Part shown: positions 11,608-22,162 of the stretch, one piece after another
Numbering within the stretch: position 1 is the stretch's first letter
Layout of the letters: every line of letters begins with the position of its first letter
Origin: a virus
Direction: 5' to 3' (one strand)
Length of the DNA: 22,162 bases
Virus record (IMG/VR): IMGVR_UViG_3300009419_000115
Span: 1-22,162 of that record
Position numbers and translations under genes: made by a program
The notes under the pieces: model-generated
What the model was told of the DNA's origin: nothing
The model's input: the letters and a program-made list of their open reading frames with translations, nothing else
Databases searched by the model: none

Positions 11608-12624
11608 ATGTTTATAGTAATTGAAGGTACAGACGCCTCAGGTAAATCTACTCTTGTGTCTGAAGTTCAAAAGCAACTTGCTGATAAGTTTCCTAATAAG
11701 GAAATCGAGTTCTACCACAAATCTAAGCCAGAAGAGATGTCTCGTCGTTGGGTTCTATACGACTATGTTACATCTATTGAAAAAGCTGACTGGTCTCAAC
11801 GTGTTGCTATCGCAGACCGTTGGCACTGGGGCGAGGTAACATACGCCGCCATCAAACGTCCTGAGACTGGCACAGGCGACGGATACGGTCTCCTTGGTAA
11901 AGCTGGTTGGCGTTGGACAGAGCTCTTCCTTCAATCACGCGGTGTTGCTCAATTTTGGCTCTATCAACCTCTTGATGTTATCACCCGTCGTCTTAATGCT
12001 CGCGGTGACGATTACATACAGGCAAGCGAGCTTGAAGAAATCCTAGAGATGTACCATCTTGCGGCGGCAAACTCTGCAGGTCTTGCAGGGCGCTTAACTC
12101 CAGGCGCAGATTCGCTTGACGCGGTTGGGCACCTTGCGTCTCACATTATCAACGTTGCCGAGGCAATAGAAGATGAAACGCGCGAGCTTGCAAAGTTTCC
12201 GGAGTATATAGGTCAACGCTATCCTCGCACGTTACTTGTAGGAGATACACGCAACATTACAAAGAAATACGGCGAGGAAACTATCCTACCTTTCATGCCT
12301 GTTGACGGCAACTCCGGCGAGTATCTACTAACCGCGCTTGAATCTGAAAAATGGAAATCTATGGGTGTCGTCAATATAAATGACATGTCGCCAGAGCGTT
12401 TTCACGCGCTATGGGCAATGTTGCGTCGTCCTCCTATAGTTGCCCTTGGGCGCTTGGCTGAAAAAGGACTTATACGCGCAGGAATACCTGAGTATCAATA
12501 CACGGTAACCTCTCATCCGCAACATGTGCGTCGATTTTTTAATTCTAAGAAAGAAGAGTATGGTCAAGCCATATCTCGCTTTGCCACTACAAAAGATAGG
12601 ACAGACCCATGGATACTGCGATAA
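11608..12624 (+). CDS. P-loop (thymidylate-kinase-like) nucleotide kinase fused to UDG-like domain
   Basis: This 338-aa protein has AAAGGA before its ATG. Residues 1-200 form a thymidylate-kinase-like P-loop domain with Walker A GTDASGKST (7-15) and DRWHWGE (70-76, the DR motif of TMP kinases). RRLNARGDD near 130 could be the lid region. Ordinary TMP kinases end at about 210 residues; here about 130 more follow. That part (LLVGDTRN, PFMPVDGNSGEYLLTALE, IVALGRLAEKGL, SHPQHVRRFF) has the layout of the uracil-DNA-glycosylase superfamily: a GD/GE motif, a PF..G.SG segment, a V.LG.xA strand and an HPQ/HPS loop (303-305). I infer the fold; activity is unknown. The gene overlaps the thymidylate-synthase-like gene by 16 bases, so the kinase likely phosphorylates that enzyme's product. 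Confidence 0.72.
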   Translation: MFIVIEGTDASGKSTLVSEVQKQLADKFPNKEIEFYHKSKPEEMSRRWVLYDYVTSIEKADWSQRVAIADRWHWGEVTYAAIKRPETGTGDGYGLLGKAGWRWTELFLQSRGVAQFWLYQPLDVITRRLNARGDDYIQASELEEILEMYHLAAANSAGLAGRLTPGADSLDAVGHLASHIINVAEAIEDETRELAKFPEYIGQRYPRTLLVGDTRNITKKYGEETILPFMPVDGNSGEYLLTALESEKWKSMGVVNINDMSPERFHALWAMLRRPPIVALGRLAEKGLIRAGIPEYQYTVTSHPQHVRRFFNSKKEEYGQAISRFATTKDRTDPWILR

Positions 12625-13475
12625 TCAACTTACCTGACGCGGTTAACGGCTACGTTAATCTTGTGCAGCACGTACTCAAGTACGGTAAGGAGGCAGCTCC
12701 TCGCGGTATGAAGACGCGCGAGATCGAGGATGCAATTATTCGCATTAACGATGTGCGACATACGCTTCCTTTAGGCGTTGGGCGTGGGACTGTTCCTGGC
12801 ATCGGTGCGGTTGAAGCTTGCCAACTACTTGCAGGCGCTGCAACTCCTAAGCTTGTTATGGCAGTCGGTCCTATGTTTAAGAACTACGCAGAAGATAACG
12901 GAATGTTTCACGGAGCATACGGTGCGCGTACGCAGGATCAATATGGGCCAGTTATCGAGCGTCTTAAGAAAGACCCTGACTCACGACAGGCGGTTGTAAC
13001 TATCTGGGATCCAGTTTTAGATCTATTGCCGGATAAGCGTGATTACCCTTGTACAGTTTTGCATCAGTTTAGAATTCGCGACAACAAGCTTAACATGAGC
13101 GTTTACATGCGCTCAAATGACGTATGGCTTGGAGCAGCATATGACTTCTTCCAGTTTACTCGCGTGCAAATTGCTATGGCGTCTGTTTTAGGAGTTGCTC
13201 CCGGATCCTATGCTCATCACGTTGGATCTCTTCACATCTATGAGCAGCACTACGACGCGGCAGAGAACCTAAAGTACACCACCGAGCCGTATGAGGATAT
13301 TCCTGCTATTACAGGATTTAACTGGCGTCAAGTGCAGGATCGCGCGCTTTCTTCCTTAACCGCTGCAATGCATATCGACGAGCCTATGCTTCTCAATAGC
13401 CTTCACCCGTTTGAAGGCTGGTATGCCCGCGCCATGATTACTGCAATCAAAAAGAACGAGGCTAAGAATGTCTGA
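12609..13475 (+). CDS. Thymidylate-synthase-family enzyme, putative dCMP hydroxymethylase
   Basis: This 288-aa protein overlaps the kinase gene by 16 bases, with ATAGGAC six bases before its ATG. Family landmarks in order are: Glu69 (VEACQLLAG, the E58 position of E. coli ThyA), YGAR (104-107), DPDSR (122-126, phosphate-binding Arg), YPCTVLHQF with catalytic Cys148, YMRSND (166-171), LGAAYDFFQFT (174-184) and GSLHIY (206-211). Thymidylate synthases have Asn in LG.PFN (N177 in E. coli), which reads dUMP; here it is Asp179. T4 dCMP hydroxymethylase also has Asp there, and changing that Asn to Asp in thymidylate synthase shifts preference to dCMP. The His after the catalytic Cys is Thr149. I therefore favour dCMP hydroxymethylase, although an atypical thymidylate synthase remains possible. 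The product would be 5-hydroxymethyl-dCMP made with methylene-tetrahydrofolate. Confidence 0.75.
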   Translation: MDTAIINLPDAVNGYVNLVQHVLKYGKEAAPRGMKTREIEDAIIRINDVRHTLPLGVGRGTVPGIGAVEACQLLAGAATPKLVMAVGPMFKNYAEDNGMFHGAYGARTQDQYGPVIERLKKDPDSRQAVVTIWDPVLDLLPDKRDYPCTVLHQFRIRDNKLNMSVYMRSNDVWLGAAYDFFQFTRVQIAMASVLGVAPGSYAHHVGSLHIYEQHYDAAENLKYTTEPYEDIPAITGFNWRQVQDRALSSLTAAMHIDEPMLLNSLHPFEGWYARAMITAIKKNEAKNV

Positions 13476-13644
13476 TCTTGAGAAAGAGTTTGGCAACAGC
13501 CCTCTACGCGAATCAATGTTGCAGCTTCATGAAATGTATCTAGAGTTGCGCGCGTCTGGCTTTAGCAAGAAACAGTCTTTGTATTTAGTATCTAAGGTCT
13601 TAACAACTGCAGTGTCAGGAAGCATGGACGATTTGAATGACTAG
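13468..13644 (+). CDS. Small 58-aa protein, unknown
   Basis: This short gene fills the gap between the thymidylate-synthase-like gene and the deaminase. It overlaps the former by eight bases and the latter by eight. GAGG lies six bases before its ATG. The product begins MSDLEKEFGNSPLRESM and has a hydrophobic helical core (LQLHEMYLELRASGFSKKQ, LYLVSKVLTT) followed by an acidic end (MDDLND). Similar short proteins with a GF.K.QAL-like helix occur in actinophage genomes, with no known function. The tight overlaps on both sides support it as a real gene. Confidence 0.7.
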   Translation: MSDLEKEFGNSPLRESMLQLHEMYLELRASGFSKKQSLYLVSKVLTTAVSGSMDDLND

Positions 13645-14113
13645 TAGACCTTCTTGGGACGAGGTATGGATGCAGGTTGCAGATGCAATCTCGCAAAGAT
13701 CCCGCTGTAGCCGCGCACAAATTGGCGCTGTTGTTGTGTCTAAGGACCAACGCATTAGCTCCACCGGCTACAACGGTCCTGCTTCCTTATTTCCTACCGA
13801 GGAGGAATGTATGTCTTGGTGCCCACGCGCTCAAGGTTTAACTACATTAGATAACACATATGACTCTTGCCCATCAATCCATGCGGAAGCAAATGCGTTG
13901 CTATACGTTGACCGTTCTCGCGTAGAAGGTGGTACCATATACATTACAGACGCAGCTTGCTACCAATGCGCAAAGTTAATTTCTAACTCTGGAATTACCC
14001 GCGTTGTTATGCGAATTGGTACGCGTGCAGCTCATCGCTTGCCGGATGCTACTGTTGAGTATTTTAAGAAATGCAATATTGATGTAGTAATAACAGAGGA
14101 CGTGGAAGCTTGA
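13637..14113 (+). CDS. Deoxycytidylate (dCMP) deaminase
   Basis: This 158-aa protein is close to the usual length of dCMP deaminases. It shows TGYNGP (43-48), the zinc motif HAE (His82, Glu84 as proton shuttle) and CYQC (Cys108, Cys111). The residue before the first zinc Cys is Ala107 where Pro is usual (PCxxC). Further Cys at 58, 62 and 78 fit the extra-Cys pattern of phage dCMP deaminases. The enzyme converts dCMP to dUMP and so feeds thymidylate synthesis. Beside a putative dCMP hydroxymethylase it would compete for or balance the dCMP pool; T4 encodes both too. It overlaps the small gene before it by eight bases and the homing endonuclease after it by four. Confidence 0.88.
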   Translation: MTSRPSWDEVWMQVADAISQRSRCSRAQIGAVVVSKDQRISSTGYNGPASLFPTEEECMSWCPRAQGLTTLDNTYDSCPSIHAEANALLYVDRSRVEGGTIYITDAACYQCAKLISNSGITRVVMRIGTRAAHRLPDATVEYFKKCNIDVVITEDVEA

Positions 14114-14685
14114 GCTGCGTATATGCGCTAGTCGCAGAATCAGACCAGGGCAACATAAGATATATCGGCCGTGCAAAAAACCCTAACGGACGTCTAAGAA
14201 ATCATTTACGTTTTGCTGAAAAAGGCAGAAAAGAGCACGTCTATAACTGGATAAATAAAGTAAAAGACAGCGGCGATAAAGTAAAGTTAATTATTGTTGA
14301 AGACAATCTTTCGTGGGAAGAGTCTGCCGCGAGAGAAATACATTACATAGCGTATTATAGGTCTTTAGGATTTGATCTAACAAATATGACCTCTGGCGGT
14401 GACGGAAGACCAGGATACGTTATTTCTAAAGAAACTAGAGAAAAAATTGGAAAATATCACAAGGGCAAAGTTCTTTCTGAAGAGACAAAGCAGAAGATAC
14501 GCGATGCAAAGATTGGTAAAAAGGTCTCTGATGAGACAAAGGCAAAAATAAGTAGTTCAACAAGAAATATTAGTCCAAAAGGCAATAGCAGACAGAAACA
14601 TGCAATGACTGATGAAGTAAAGGCAAAGATCAGCCAAACCCTTACTATCAATAACAAAAAGAGAAGAGAATCTAATGACAAATGA
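14110..14685 (+). CDS. GIY-YIG homing endonuclease with NUMOD3 repeats
   Basis: This 191-aa protein is translated from TTG, nine bases after GAGGA (14096-14100). The N-terminal GIY-YIG nuclease domain has CVYAL and IRYIGRAKNPNGRLRNHL, then REIHYIAYYRSLGFDLTN with the conserved Glu. A GGDGRPGY linker follows. The C-terminal half has several NUMOD3-type DNA-binding repeats (SKETREKIGKYHKGK, SEETKQKIRDAKIGK, SDETKAKISSS, TDEVKAKISQT). It is Lys-rich and uses AGA and ATA codons more than its neighbours, suggesting separate acquisition. It is free-standing: no intron is visible in the deaminase before it or the polymerase after it. It likely cuts a related phage genome and spreads itself with flanking genes. 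It overlaps the polymerase gene by 11 bases. Confidence 0.88.
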   Translation: MSCVYALVAESDQGNIRYIGRAKNPNGRLRNHLRFAEKGRKEHVYNWINKVKDSGDKVKLIIVEDNLSWEESAAREIHYIAYYRSLGFDLTNMTSGGDGRPGYVISKETREKIGKYHKGKVLSEETKQKIRDAKIGKKVSDETKAKISSSTRNISPKGNSRQKHAMTDEVKAKISQTLTINNKKRRESNDK

Positions 14686-16498
14686 CGCTTTAAGTGATGT
14701 CAAGCTTCATTTAGTCAATAGCACAGAAGAAGCTACTAAATTTCTACAATGGCTGGGCGAGCGTCGTCCTCACAATGCTGTGGCGATTGACACTGAAACA
14801 GGCGAAAAACCTGGAAGAGATCGAAAAGATGCACTATCGCCATGGCACGGACAATTAAGACTTATACAAGTAGGAGACGGGCAGCAAGGCTGGGCTATCC
14901 CGTGGGATCAGTGGAAAGGAGTGTTCTATGAAGGAATGGAACGCTTCGATGGACCTATAGTATGTCACAATATTGCGTTTGAAGCGCGCTGGCTTGAACT
15001 TCATTCTGAATGGAAAATGCCATGGCACAGAGCGCACGACACTATGATACAAGCGCACATCATTGACCCACTTGGCGTCGGTGCGTTAAAACGTCTTGCA
15101 GCTTTGTACGTTGATGGGCGCGCAGTCGCCTTACAAGACACATTAGACGAAGAACTAGTAAAAAATGGTTGGACATGGGGTACCGTTCCAACTAATTTTC
15201 AACCCTACTGGGCATACGGCGCGTTAGACTGTGTTCTAACTATGCGCCTGTGGGAACAGTTTAATGTAAAGTGCGGTCCTGATGGTCCATACAACAGAGC
15301 ATACGAACTAGAAATGGCAACACGTCGCATCGTTACCCGTATGGAAATTAACGGCGCGCGTATTGACCTAGACTACTCCAAGAAAAAGTTCGACGAGCTA
15401 ACAGAGTACGCAGACTCAGTTAAGACATGGGCTAAGCAAAAGTATGACGGTGTTTCTATTAGTAGTAACATTCAATTGGTTCGTCTGTTTGAGAGCCTTG
15501 GCGCAGAGATTAACGAATACACTCCTTCGGGACAAAAATCAGCTTCTAAGGATCAACTTAAGCTTCTTTCTATTGAAGGAAACGACGAGGTAAAGGCTTT
15601 AGCAGAAATCGTATTAAAGCAACGCAAGGCAGATAAGCTTGCTAATACGTATTTCTCTAACTTCTTAAATGATAACGTAAACGGATTTGTTCACCCATCT
15701 GTAAAAACGCTTGGCGCTCGTACTTCGCGTATGTCAATCCAAAACCCAGCACTGCAAACATTGCCTAAGGGTGATGATGTTGTGCGCCGTGCGTTTATCC
15801 CAAAAGATGAAGATCATGTCATCGTTACCTCAGACCTTGACCAGGTCGAGTTTAGAATGTTCGCATCACTCTCACAAGATACAAATCTTATCTCGCTTTT
15901 CAACAAAGCTGACGCGACGGGGTCAGATCCGTTCACTGAAATTGGTCGTGAAATCTACAACGACCCGAACATGCAACGGTCGGACAAGCGCCGTAACCTC
16001 ATTAAGGGAACTATCTACGGTCGTCTCTACGGCGCAGGAGTCTCTAAGCAAGCTCTAACAGCAGGCGTTCCTGAAAACCAGATGCGCACGGTATCGGATT
16101 CACTTGATACGCGATTCCCAGGTATGGCTCTATTTCAACGACAGATTGAAGACGTTGGAATGCGTCGCCTAAAGGCAGAAGGGCAAGGATATGTTTACAC
16201 CTGGACAGGTCGTCGTCTTCCTTGTGATGAAGATCGTGCTTACACATTATTAAATTATTTGATCCAAGGAGGTGCGGCTGAGGTATTTAAGTCTAACCTT
16301 GTAAAACTAGATCAGGCAGATTTAACCGAACTGCTAATCGTCCCTGTACACGATGAAATTGTTCTTAACGCACCGCGTAAGGACGTTGAAGAAATTAAAC
16401 GTACTGTTAAAGAGTGCATGACAACTACCGAAGGCTGGGCTGTGCCTCTTACGTCTGGCATTGACGGTCCTATGGAAAACTGGGGAGAAAAATACTAG
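14675..16498 (+). CDS. DNA polymerase I-family replicative polymerase (Pol A)
   Basis: This 607-aa protein has AGAAGAG before its ATG. The N-terminal 3'-5' exonuclease domain shows Exo I AIDTETG (Asp39, Glu41), Exo II HNIAFEARWL near residue 100, and Exo III YGALDCVLTMRLWE. Exo II carries Glu where most family members have Asp. There is no 5' nuclease domain, as is usual in phage enzymes. The polymerase domain has motif A SDLDQVEFRMFA near 385-395, motif B RRNLIKGTIYGRLYG near 440-453, and motif C PVHDEIVLNAP near 556-566. In motif B the residue equal to E. coli Phe762 is Tyr, as in T7 polymerase. It copies the phage genome with the helicase and recombination genes downstream. The stop overlaps the next start by one base. 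Confidence 0.95.
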   Translation: MTNDALSDVKLHLVNSTEEATKFLQWLGERRPHNAVAIDTETGEKPGRDRKDALSPWHGQLRLIQVGDGQQGWAIPWDQWKGVFYEGMERFDGPIVCHNIAFEARWLELHSEWKMPWHRAHDTMIQAHIIDPLGVGALKRLAALYVDGRAVALQDTLDEELVKNGWTWGTVPTNFQPYWAYGALDCVLTMRLWEQFNVKCGPDGPYNRAYELEMATRRIVTRMEINGARIDLDYSKKKFDELTEYADSVKTWAKQKYDGVSISSNIQLVRLFESLGAEINEYTPSGQKSASKDQLKLLSIEGNDEVKALAEIVLKQRKADKLANTYFSNFLNDNVNGFVHPSVKTLGARTSRMSIQNPALQTLPKGDDVVRRAFIPKDEDHVIVTSDLDQVEFRMFASLSQDTNLISLFNKADATGSDPFTEIGREIYNDPNMQRSDKRRNLIKGTIYGRLYGAGVSKQALTAGVPENQMRTVSDSLDTRFPGMALFQRQIEDVGMRRLKAEGQGYVYTWTGRRLPCDEDRAYTLLNYLIQGGAAEVFKSNLVKLDQADLTELLIVPVHDEIVLNAPRKDVEEIKRTVKECMTTTEGWAVPLTSGIDGPMENWGEKY

Positions 16499-21193: not shown

Positions 21194-21206
21194 AAGGGTA
21201 GTGGGC

Positions 21207-22162
21207 ATGAAGGTATTGATGAGTGGTTTTACCGCGTTGCAAATCAACACGGAAAAACGTACAATACAAAAGATTGACGTACCTGCGTCTATCGCAAAAG
21301 CTTTGCGCGAAGCTGGACATGACGTTGACTGGCGTAAAATTACTCCAGGTGAGGATCTTTCTGGCTATGACGTTTTATGGATCAATCTTGCTCCACTCAA
21401 CTCATTAAATGGTCGTCAAGGTGCGATGGGTGCACTTTATGCTTTGTCCTCAGGCATCCCTTGCGTAGGATTCTTTGATGATTGGCAATTCAATACTGTA
21501 TTCAACGGAGCACGCGCGCTAATTCGCAAGCCTGCTATGCTTTATAAGCATCTGCTTGTTGGAACAGAGCATCGCGGTGAAGAGGGCGCGACTTACTTTA
21601 GTCGTGCAGATATTGAGGCAGCGCTTGAGCGTGTCAGAGAATTGAACCCAGCGGCTGCTAAGAAGTGTTATATCGAACGCTACTACATGATGGATACAGA
21701 CGAAAACGTTCAGCCTTACGAAAAGCGTCTTGTTGAAGCAGCGCGTGATCTTTTAGCAGATCGTTGGACTGCAGGTATGGTTCCAGTTTGCCCTATGTAC
21801 TCATTTGGCGACAGAGCTATCGTGCGTAAGCGCATGCCTGATGAGGTAGGACCTATTGAAGCTCTTGACCCAACGTCAACTGTTGTGCCAACACTTCAAC
21901 CAATAACTGCGCTCGCGCCAGAGCACAAGAAAAAGGCTTGGGTGCTTGGAGCTCTTATGCCACATGATACTTGGCTAGAAAAGAAAAATCCAGACTGGCC
22001 AGTTGAGATTGTTGGAAGTCGTAAGCTTATTAAGAAACTTGGCGGACAAAGATTTGATACAGAGCAGGACGTTTTAGAGTTCTACAATCATCACTGGGGA
22101 ATTCTTTCTCCACCGTATCCACACGCTGGTTCAGGCTGGTGGCGTAGTCGTTTCCTATACGC
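21207..22162 (+). CDS. GT-B-like glycosyltransferase (N-terminal 318 residues; 3' end outside window)
   Basis: The frame is open from ATG 21207 to the window end. GAAGGG lies eight bases before the ATG. The N-terminus MKVLMSGFT, ASIAKALREAGHDVDW and GYDVLWINLAP is a Rossmann-like fold as in GT-B enzymes, followed by SGIPCVGFFDDWQF. A helical middle follows. The second half has AWVLGALMPHDTW, VEIVGSRK and then WGILSPPYPHAGSGWWRSRF at the cut end, the type of donor-site segment seen in GT-B glycosyltransferases. The family resembles glycosyltransferases of actinophages. It may glycosylate hydroxymethylated bases made by the putative dCMP hydroxymethylase at 12609, or another acceptor; the sequence does not say. 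The fold assignment is moderately sure and the substrate unknown. Confidence 0.62.
   Translation, partial: MKVLMSGFTALQINTEKRTIQKIDVPASIAKALREAGHDVDWRKITPGEDLSGYDVLWINLAPLNSLNGRQGAMGALYALSSGIPCVGFFDDWQFNTVFNGARALIRKPAMLYKHLLVGTEHRGEEGATYFSRADIEAALERVRELNPAAAKKCYIERYYMMDTDENVQPYEKRLVEAARDLLADRWTAGMVPVCPMYSFGDRAIVRKRMPDEVGPIEALDPTSTVVPTLQPITALAPEHKKKAWVLGALMPHDTWLEKKNPDWPVEIVGSRKLIKKLGGQRFDTEQDVLEFYNHHWGILSPPYPHAGSGWWRSRFLY

Follow-up and report, generated by a model that had tools for sequence, protein, structure and literature searches.

The 22,162-base virus contig IMGVR_UViG_3300009419_000115, analysed here over its full length and referred to as the window (G+C content 45 to 47%), encodes a single protein of the thymidylate synthase (TS) type, and this enzyme is very probably a folate-dependent dCMP hydroxymethylase that would feed the production of DNA containing glycosylated 5-hydroxymethylcytosine (5hmC). 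The analysis provides residues, a fold, an operon and patterns of gene co-occurrence, and it is from these that we infer the substrate, the product, the DNA content and the sugar. The initial annotation of the gene had suggested that the phage may make 5-hydroxymethyl-dCMP, and this appears to be the best-supported reading of the sequence, given an Asp three residues before the catalytic Cys (Asp145), the retained Asp171, Gly175 and Tyr211, the Arg126/Ser169 pair, the operon, the lack of dihydrofolate reductase (DHFR) in the relatives searched, and MilA as the nearest solved structure. The kind of enzyme is already known from phage T4. The present analysis adds its assignment to an actinophage-like clade, tests built on Asp145 and the folate residues, arguments against a 5-hydroxylase, and the exchangeable sugar genes that follow the enzyme.

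Active site, fold and phylogeny

The 288-residue window protein matches PF00303 (Pfam, E 3.4e-28), and its residues were assigned from a MAFFT alignment with E. coli ThyA, T4 gp42 and others. The gene and the codons on which the argument turns are as follows (roles of Asp145, Ser169 and Asp171 after PMC6400193 and PMC5175136).

12609..13475, + strand: TS-fold enzyme of 288 aa with ATG start, predicted to be a dCMP hydroxymethylase; PF00303, D179/D145/T149/R126/S169
13041..13043, + strand: Asp145 codon, three before the catalytic Cys; the water-activating residue in T4 dCMP hydroxymethylase (alignment; PMC6400193)
13050..13055, + strand: catalytic Cys148 and Thr149 codons (ThyA C146, H147; alignment)
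13113..13121, + strand: Ser169-Asn170-Asp171 codons; Ser is the deoxyribose determinant (MilA Ala176) and Asp171 the folate-binding ThyA D169 (alignments; PMC5175136, PMC6400193)
13143..13145, + strand: Asp179 codon, the cytosine-reading position (ThyA N177, T4 gp42 D179; alignment, 80/80 relatives)

The catalytic set of the TS fold is present in full (E69, C148, R126, R168, H209 and Y211). As the initial annotation had read them, Cys148, Arg126, Arg168, His209 and Tyr211 correspond to ThyA C146, R126, R166, H207 and Y209; Glu69, Asp171 and Gly175 are retained as well, and ThyA W80 and W83 are replaced by Phe90 and Tyr93. The annotation's central observation, Asp179 at the base-reading position, also holds in the alignment, where the residue, 31 positions after the Cys in all three proteins, falls on ThyA N177 and T4 gp42 D179, as does the replacement of ThyA His147 by Thr149. 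According to PMC8670742, Asn at position 177 reads uracil and Asp reads cytosine, positions 177 and 147 were the two most strongly associated with modified DNA among 433 environmental TS sequences, and Asp177 as a marker of cytosine modification in phages is a general rule already published. The residue after the Cys and that at 177 pair as Thr+Asp in T4, MilA and the phage enzymes with Asp at this site (D-type) other than that of DLP4, as Pro+Asp in DLP4, as Asn+Asn in three uracil-type phage enzymes, and as His+Asn in two ThyA proteins. A dUMP hydroxymethylase was rejected because Asp179, not Asn, occupies the base-reading position.

Asp179 alone would fit a dCMP methylase, a dCMP hydroxymethylase or a flavin-dependent dCMP 5-hydroxylase, and the choice among these three cytosine enzymes rests on Asp145, on the kept Asp171, Gly175 and Tyr211, and on Arg126 and Ser169. 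Asp145, which the initial annotation passed over, is the more telling residue. Dihydropyrimidine aside, dCMP-type hydroxymethylases of the TS superfamily are expected to have Asp or Glu at this place; in T4 dCMP hydroxymethylase the Asp three before the Cys activates water and the D145N variant is dead (PMC6400193), and the residue at this position is Leu143 in ThyA, Asn in DLP4 and Glu in RB69 ORF048. Retention of Asp171, Gly175 and Tyr211 speaks for a folate enzyme, ThyA Asp169 being the pterin-binding residue (PMC6400193). The CMP preference of MilA is set by Lys133 and Ala176, where users of deoxyribonucleotides have Arg and Ser (PMC5175136), and Arg126 and Ser169 in the window enzyme therefore predict use of a deoxyribonucleotide.

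These residues were followed through the best 80 of 115 relatives recovered by an IMG/VR scan with the window protein, the sample behind all 80-relative counts (55 of the sequences are distinct, and clustering below 90% identity leaves 34 representatives). All 80 hold D179, D145, C148, T149, R126, S169, D171, G175, H209, Y211 and E69, a count that is biased because one search peptide contained D179. In a recount limited to the 45 of the 80 relatives that contain a search peptide free of these sites, D179, D145, T149, S169 and D171 are present in 45/45. The best 80 of a second profile scan of viral contigs again comprised these contigs.

The AlphaFold2 model of the enzyme has a mean predicted local distance difference test (pLDDT) score of 91.7 (40 sequences in the alignment), and its seven first-ranked Foldseek matches are all MilA, the CMP hydroxymethylase (5b6d, 5jnh) that is also the solved structure nearest by sequence among the matches listed. 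VIA-align gives MilA a Z of 26.4 (root-mean-square deviation 2.8, 275 residues), the second family, the dCMP hydroxylase of phage HY126 (9iqc, 9iqu), a Z of 20.7 over 221, and the best ThyA a Z of 19.2 over 234 residues. The T4 gp42 structures (1b49, 6a9b) are neither among the 50 fold matches listed nor among the best 60 of 132 sequence matches, which says nothing of a different fold. A maximum-likelihood tree of 31 rows, 14 of them from the 80 relatives, puts the window enzyme outside ThyA, the placement that the initial annotation had asked to have checked; its clade joins the enzymes of Gordonia phages GodonK, GMA2 and Sixama with support 100/99, and two ThyA proteins group with DLP4 elsewhere (100/98).

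Cys148, Asp145, Thr149, Ser169, Asp171 and Asp179 align one to one with T4 gp42, but identity is only ~30% over the matched part, Gly102 stands for Ser94, the C-terminal part of the window enzyme is longer, and the two are not grouped in the tree. In T4, too, gp42 is accompanied by the pyrophosphatase gp56 and a glucosyltransferase, whereas the window has a family A polymerase and a tight operon. MilA, nearest in both sequence and fold, shares the Asp-x-x-Cys-Thr arrangement and the cytosine Asp but differs at the two ribose determinants. The 'thymidylate synthase' of Actinomycetia phage DSL-LC01 (WJZ48532.1) is 61.5% identical, with Asp181, Asp147 and Thr151 in a collinear operon, although in that phage a UDP-galactopyranose mutase follows the glycosyltransferase. 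The (d)UMP enzymes of the SPO1 gp29/Kuttervirus type also have Asp three before the Cys, but their base-reading residue is Asn, with one extra residue before it, and Asn follows the Cys.

By analogy with T4 gp42, Cys148 would attack C6 of dCMP while Asp179 would bind and protonate N3 of the cytosine; C5 would attack methylene-tetrahydrofolate activated through Glu69, tetrahydrofolate would then leave, and water activated by Asp145 would add to the exocyclic methylene to yield 5-hydroxymethyl-dCMP. The substrate would come from dCTP through a gp56-like pyrophosphatase, and the neighbouring kinase together with the host would convert the hydroxymethylated monophosphate to the triphosphate, which the phage polymerase would build into DNA, where one or two GT-B glycosyltransferases would add sugar to the 5hmC.

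Alternative assignments

A flavin-dependent dCMP 5-hydroxylase belonging to the TS superfamily, like ORF048 of Mosigvirus RB69 or AfhB of phage HY126, would lead to glycosylated 5-hydroxycytosine, and we consider it improbable, if still the first of the alternatives. HY126 AfhB is such a flavin-dependent enzyme with a TS fold by its structure entry titles, and RB69 ORF048 differs little from 9iqc in sequence. According to PMC13390438, an enzyme of this type makes the 5-hydroxycytosine that is found in arabinosylated form in Mosigvirus DNA, and such phages also pair the enzyme with glycosyltransferases. The hydroxylases have the same fold, forming the second-best solved family above, and RB69 ORF048 keeps the Cys, the Thr and the cytosine Asp, so that Asp179 fails to separate hydroxymethylase from 5-hydroxylase. 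RB69 ORF048, the one sequence through which the hydroxylases were compared, nevertheless has Glu three before the Cys, and it has lost ThyA D169, G173 and Y209 (to Asn, Val and Phe), the very residues retained as Asp171, Gly175 and Tyr211 in the window enzyme and in 80/80 relatives; MilA is also closer in fold.

A dCMP methylase producing 5-methyl-dCMP, as proposed for Xp12-like phages, is quite unlikely. The Asp at the base-reading position would suit it, and an Asn-to-Asp change in ThyA (N177D) enables dCMP methylation, as cited in PMC8670742. Xp12 is represented here by DLP4, a phage of the same group according to PMC9206674, with a putative content of 5-methylcytosine. Its TS-like protein (L097, 14817-16707), with Asp at 177, Asn three before the Cys and Pro after it, lies beside a dCMP deaminase and a DHFR, and is on its sequence a candidate dCMP methylase of the Xp12 group. 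The window enzyme, in contrast, has Asp145 where ThyA has Leu and DLP4 Asn, and the ThyA W80/W83 pair is lost. A hydroxymethylase leaves tetrahydrofolate, not the dihydrofolate left by a methylase, and the absence of DHFR therefore fits a hydroxymethylase. Among 13 long relatives (65 to 136 kb, possibly fragments) and the complete sequences of four named ones (GodonK, GMA2, Sixama and DSL-LC01), DHFR is found in 0/13 and 0/4, whereas in DLP4, itself a putative case of dCMP methylation, it lies one gene away from the TS.

That the enzyme is an ordinary TS converting dUMP to dTMP, as its relatives in DSL-LC01 and Gordonia phages are annotated, is very unlikely. The adjoining dCMP deaminase yields dUMP, and exactly one PF00303 gene is present in each of the 13 long relatives. 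However, ThyA N177, H147, L143, W80 and W83 are all lost, the enzyme scores under the cut-off of all eight NCBIfam ThyA models matched, and it lies outside ThyA in the tree. ThyX is found in 0/13 long relatives and in one of the four named ones, GMA2 (E 2.1e-48), which holds it besides its D-type gene, and this fits a different job for the D-type gene. Least probable of all is a MilA-like CMP hydroxymethylase of ribonucleotide or small-molecule chemistry: MilA is the nearest solved protein, but its Lys133 and Ala176 are Arg126 and Ser169 in the window enzyme and in 80/80 relatives, and the gene is located in a DNA replication operon.

Several observations weigh against a dCMP hydroxymethylase. 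With an adjoining deaminase that makes dUMP and no other TS in 13/13 long relatives, host ThyA or ThyX must use the dUMP in most relatives. The hydroxymethylase signature of the T4 paper includes, two positions ahead of the Tyr that abstracts the proton, a Ser or Thr (Ser94 in T4), which is Gly102 in the window enzyme and Gly in 80/80 relatives. Ser94 assists in T4 and S94A retains about 25% activity (PMC6400193), and SPO1 gp29, annotated as a dUMP hydroxymethylase, has Ala at this position; Gly102 is thus a departure, not a disproof, which keeps the window enzyme out of the T4 gp42 subgroup drawn in that paper while leaving gp42-like working possible. T4 gp42 and several other proteins sit on very long branches and their placement is unsure, so the tree shows no close kinship to T4 gp42. 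A C5-cytosine DNA methylase is encoded in 9/13 long relatives, a few genes downstream of the operon, with an intact GCPPC motif in six long-relative copies (L114-L117, L120 and L121) and in the DSL-LC01 copy read (98374-99618); this sits poorly with complete exchange of cytosine, but the two would be compatible if only part of the DNA carried 5hmC or if the methylase worked before the exchange. Finally, seven of the 55 relatives with room for a glycosyltransferase show neither of its two families in the expected place.

The surrounding operon and pathway genes

The neighbouring genes of the window are listed below.

11608..12624, + strand: thymidylate-kinase-like P-loop protein, candidate dCMP or hydroxymethyl-dCMP kinase (phrog_761, E 2.1e-13; 50% identical to the DSL-LC01 homologue)
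12196-12624, + strand: C-terminal domain of the kinase, well conserved in relatives and weakly like uracil-DNA glycosylase (UDG)
13468..13644, + strand: 58-aa open reading frame between enzyme and deaminase, with no PHROG match (homologue in 73/80 relatives)
13637..14113, + strand: dCMP deaminase (PF00383, E 2.5e-18; phrog_174, E 5.6e-47; HAE and CYQC motifs)
14110-14685, + strand: homing endonuclease of the GIY-YIG type that also contains NUMOD3, located between the deaminase and polymerase genes (Pfam)
14675..16498, + strand: family A DNA polymerase (PF00476, E 9.6e-54)
21201..22160, + strand: GT-B glycosyltransferase, truncated where the window stops and a candidate for glycosylating 5hmC (modelled with AlphaFold2 through its full-length L004 homologue; 29% identical to the DSL-LC01 'glycosyltransferase')

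The gene order of the window thus runs from the kinase through the TS-fold enzyme, dCMP deaminase and family A polymerase, which would have to copy with a modified dNTP, to recombination genes and the glycosyltransferase. Among the 80 loci, which are cut by contig ends, the kinase and the dCMP deaminase each accompany the enzyme in 78, the polymerase does so in 77 and a single-strand-binding protein in 57. The homing endonuclease has a homologue in just 8/80 relatives and no match in the DSL-LC01 stretch (L002). The likeness of the kinase C-terminal domain to UDG is one that we presume from weak scores and motifs; the UDG match in Pfam is below the cut-off (E 0.072), and the domain used as a profile has no UDG match in the PDB. 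A similar C-terminal part is seen in AXL3 of Stenotrophomonas.

A candidate for the pyrophosphatase of the proposed pathway is encoded in the relatives, a T4-gp56-like protein (PF08761) being found in 12/13 long and 4/4 named ones. T4 gp56, the dCTPase, itself clears the PF08761 cut-off, and phrog_173 and phrog_18650 are common to it and a relative's protein. In the eight long relatives in which the order of genes after the glycosyltransferase was read, it is followed by a paralogue, a PF08761-type pyrophosphatase (recognised in 7/8 from its resemblance to that of DSL-LC01), small genes, the C5-cytosine methylase (6/8), a pyrimidine dimer glycosylase and WhiB. The idea that the sugar is galactofuranose arose from the UDP-galactopyranose mutase of DSL-LC01, and was abandoned because that gene is present in 0/13 long relatives.

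Glycosyltransferases, exchangeable sugar genes and host

The window glycosyltransferase matches no Pfam family, and its profile has no sequence match to any solved structure. The model of its full-length homologue (pLDDT 83.5) is matched by VIA to SenB (Z 16.5), T4 beta-glucosyltransferase (16.4 over 304 residues) and T4 alpha-glucosyltransferase (14.9); as modelled, the fold is GT-B, which does not fix the acceptor. Matches to the glycosyltransferase occur in 53 of 50,697 records of a phage collection, all under 60% identity. The 14 closest TS homologues come from 14 records of nine phages, eight of which are Gordonia phages, and every one of these records is among the 53. The TS proteins aligned from four of those nine phages have Asp at the base-reading position (4/4).

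Two of the 57 loci with a single-strand-binding protein end directly after it. In the remaining 55 the glycosyltransferase comes next in 46 and its paralogue in two, the two families being related (hhalign probability 98.6). The seven others have neither, and in the three of these that were read the slot holds a cassette at the following positions.

L061, 10160-13144: exchanged glycosyltransferase slot
L069, 18168-20697: exchanged glycosyltransferase slot
L075, 18131-20660: exchanged glycosyltransferase slot

Each cassette encodes three proteins, with lengths of 415 (416 in L075), ~255 and ~172 aa. For L061 and L069, the first of them has no Pfam match, the second is APH-like (below the cut-off in L069) and the third is HAD-like (below the cut-off in both). 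The L061 cassette continues with a nucleotidyltransferase; in L069 there follow a protein that starts like the L061 nucleotidyltransferase and one that starts like the 340-aa paralogue, as judged from first residues only.

Taken together, these features allow a broader proposal, which we offer tentatively and hold to be possible but rather doubtful: that a widespread clade of actinobacterial phages swaps cytosine for 5hmC and adds sugars not yet described in DNA, either through tandem paralogous GT-B enzymes, perhaps as a disaccharide, or through an exchangeable cassette that makes another activated sugar, with the UDG-like-fused kinase as gatekeeper for the modified nucleotide. The cassette in this proposal would consist of a 415-aa candidate glycosyltransferase, an APH-like kinase, a HAD-like hydrolase and a nucleotidyltransferase.

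The host of the virus is a bacterium, probably an actinobacterium. DSL-LC01 is predicted to infect Actinomycetia in the paper describing it, in which no hydroxymethyl function is named (0 occurrences), and the relatives carry WhiB. No report of hydroxymethylcytosine in these phages was found in the literature, most subscription journals and a 2025 5-hydroxycytosine preprint lying outside the search. Modified cytosine is predicted in a large number of actinobacteriophages, mostly uncultured but in some cases cultured, in which the gene is labelled TS; if true, this would bear on escape from restriction and on the enzymes able to cut or tag phage DNA, and the phages would be a source of new hydroxymethylases and glycosyltransferases. 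Among the phages in which this gene bears a thymidylate synthase annotation are GodonK, GMA2, Sixama, Phendrix and Forza. The enzymes of the first three have the same residues as the window enzyme, including the cytosine Asp, and on this comparison their genes probably need renaming.

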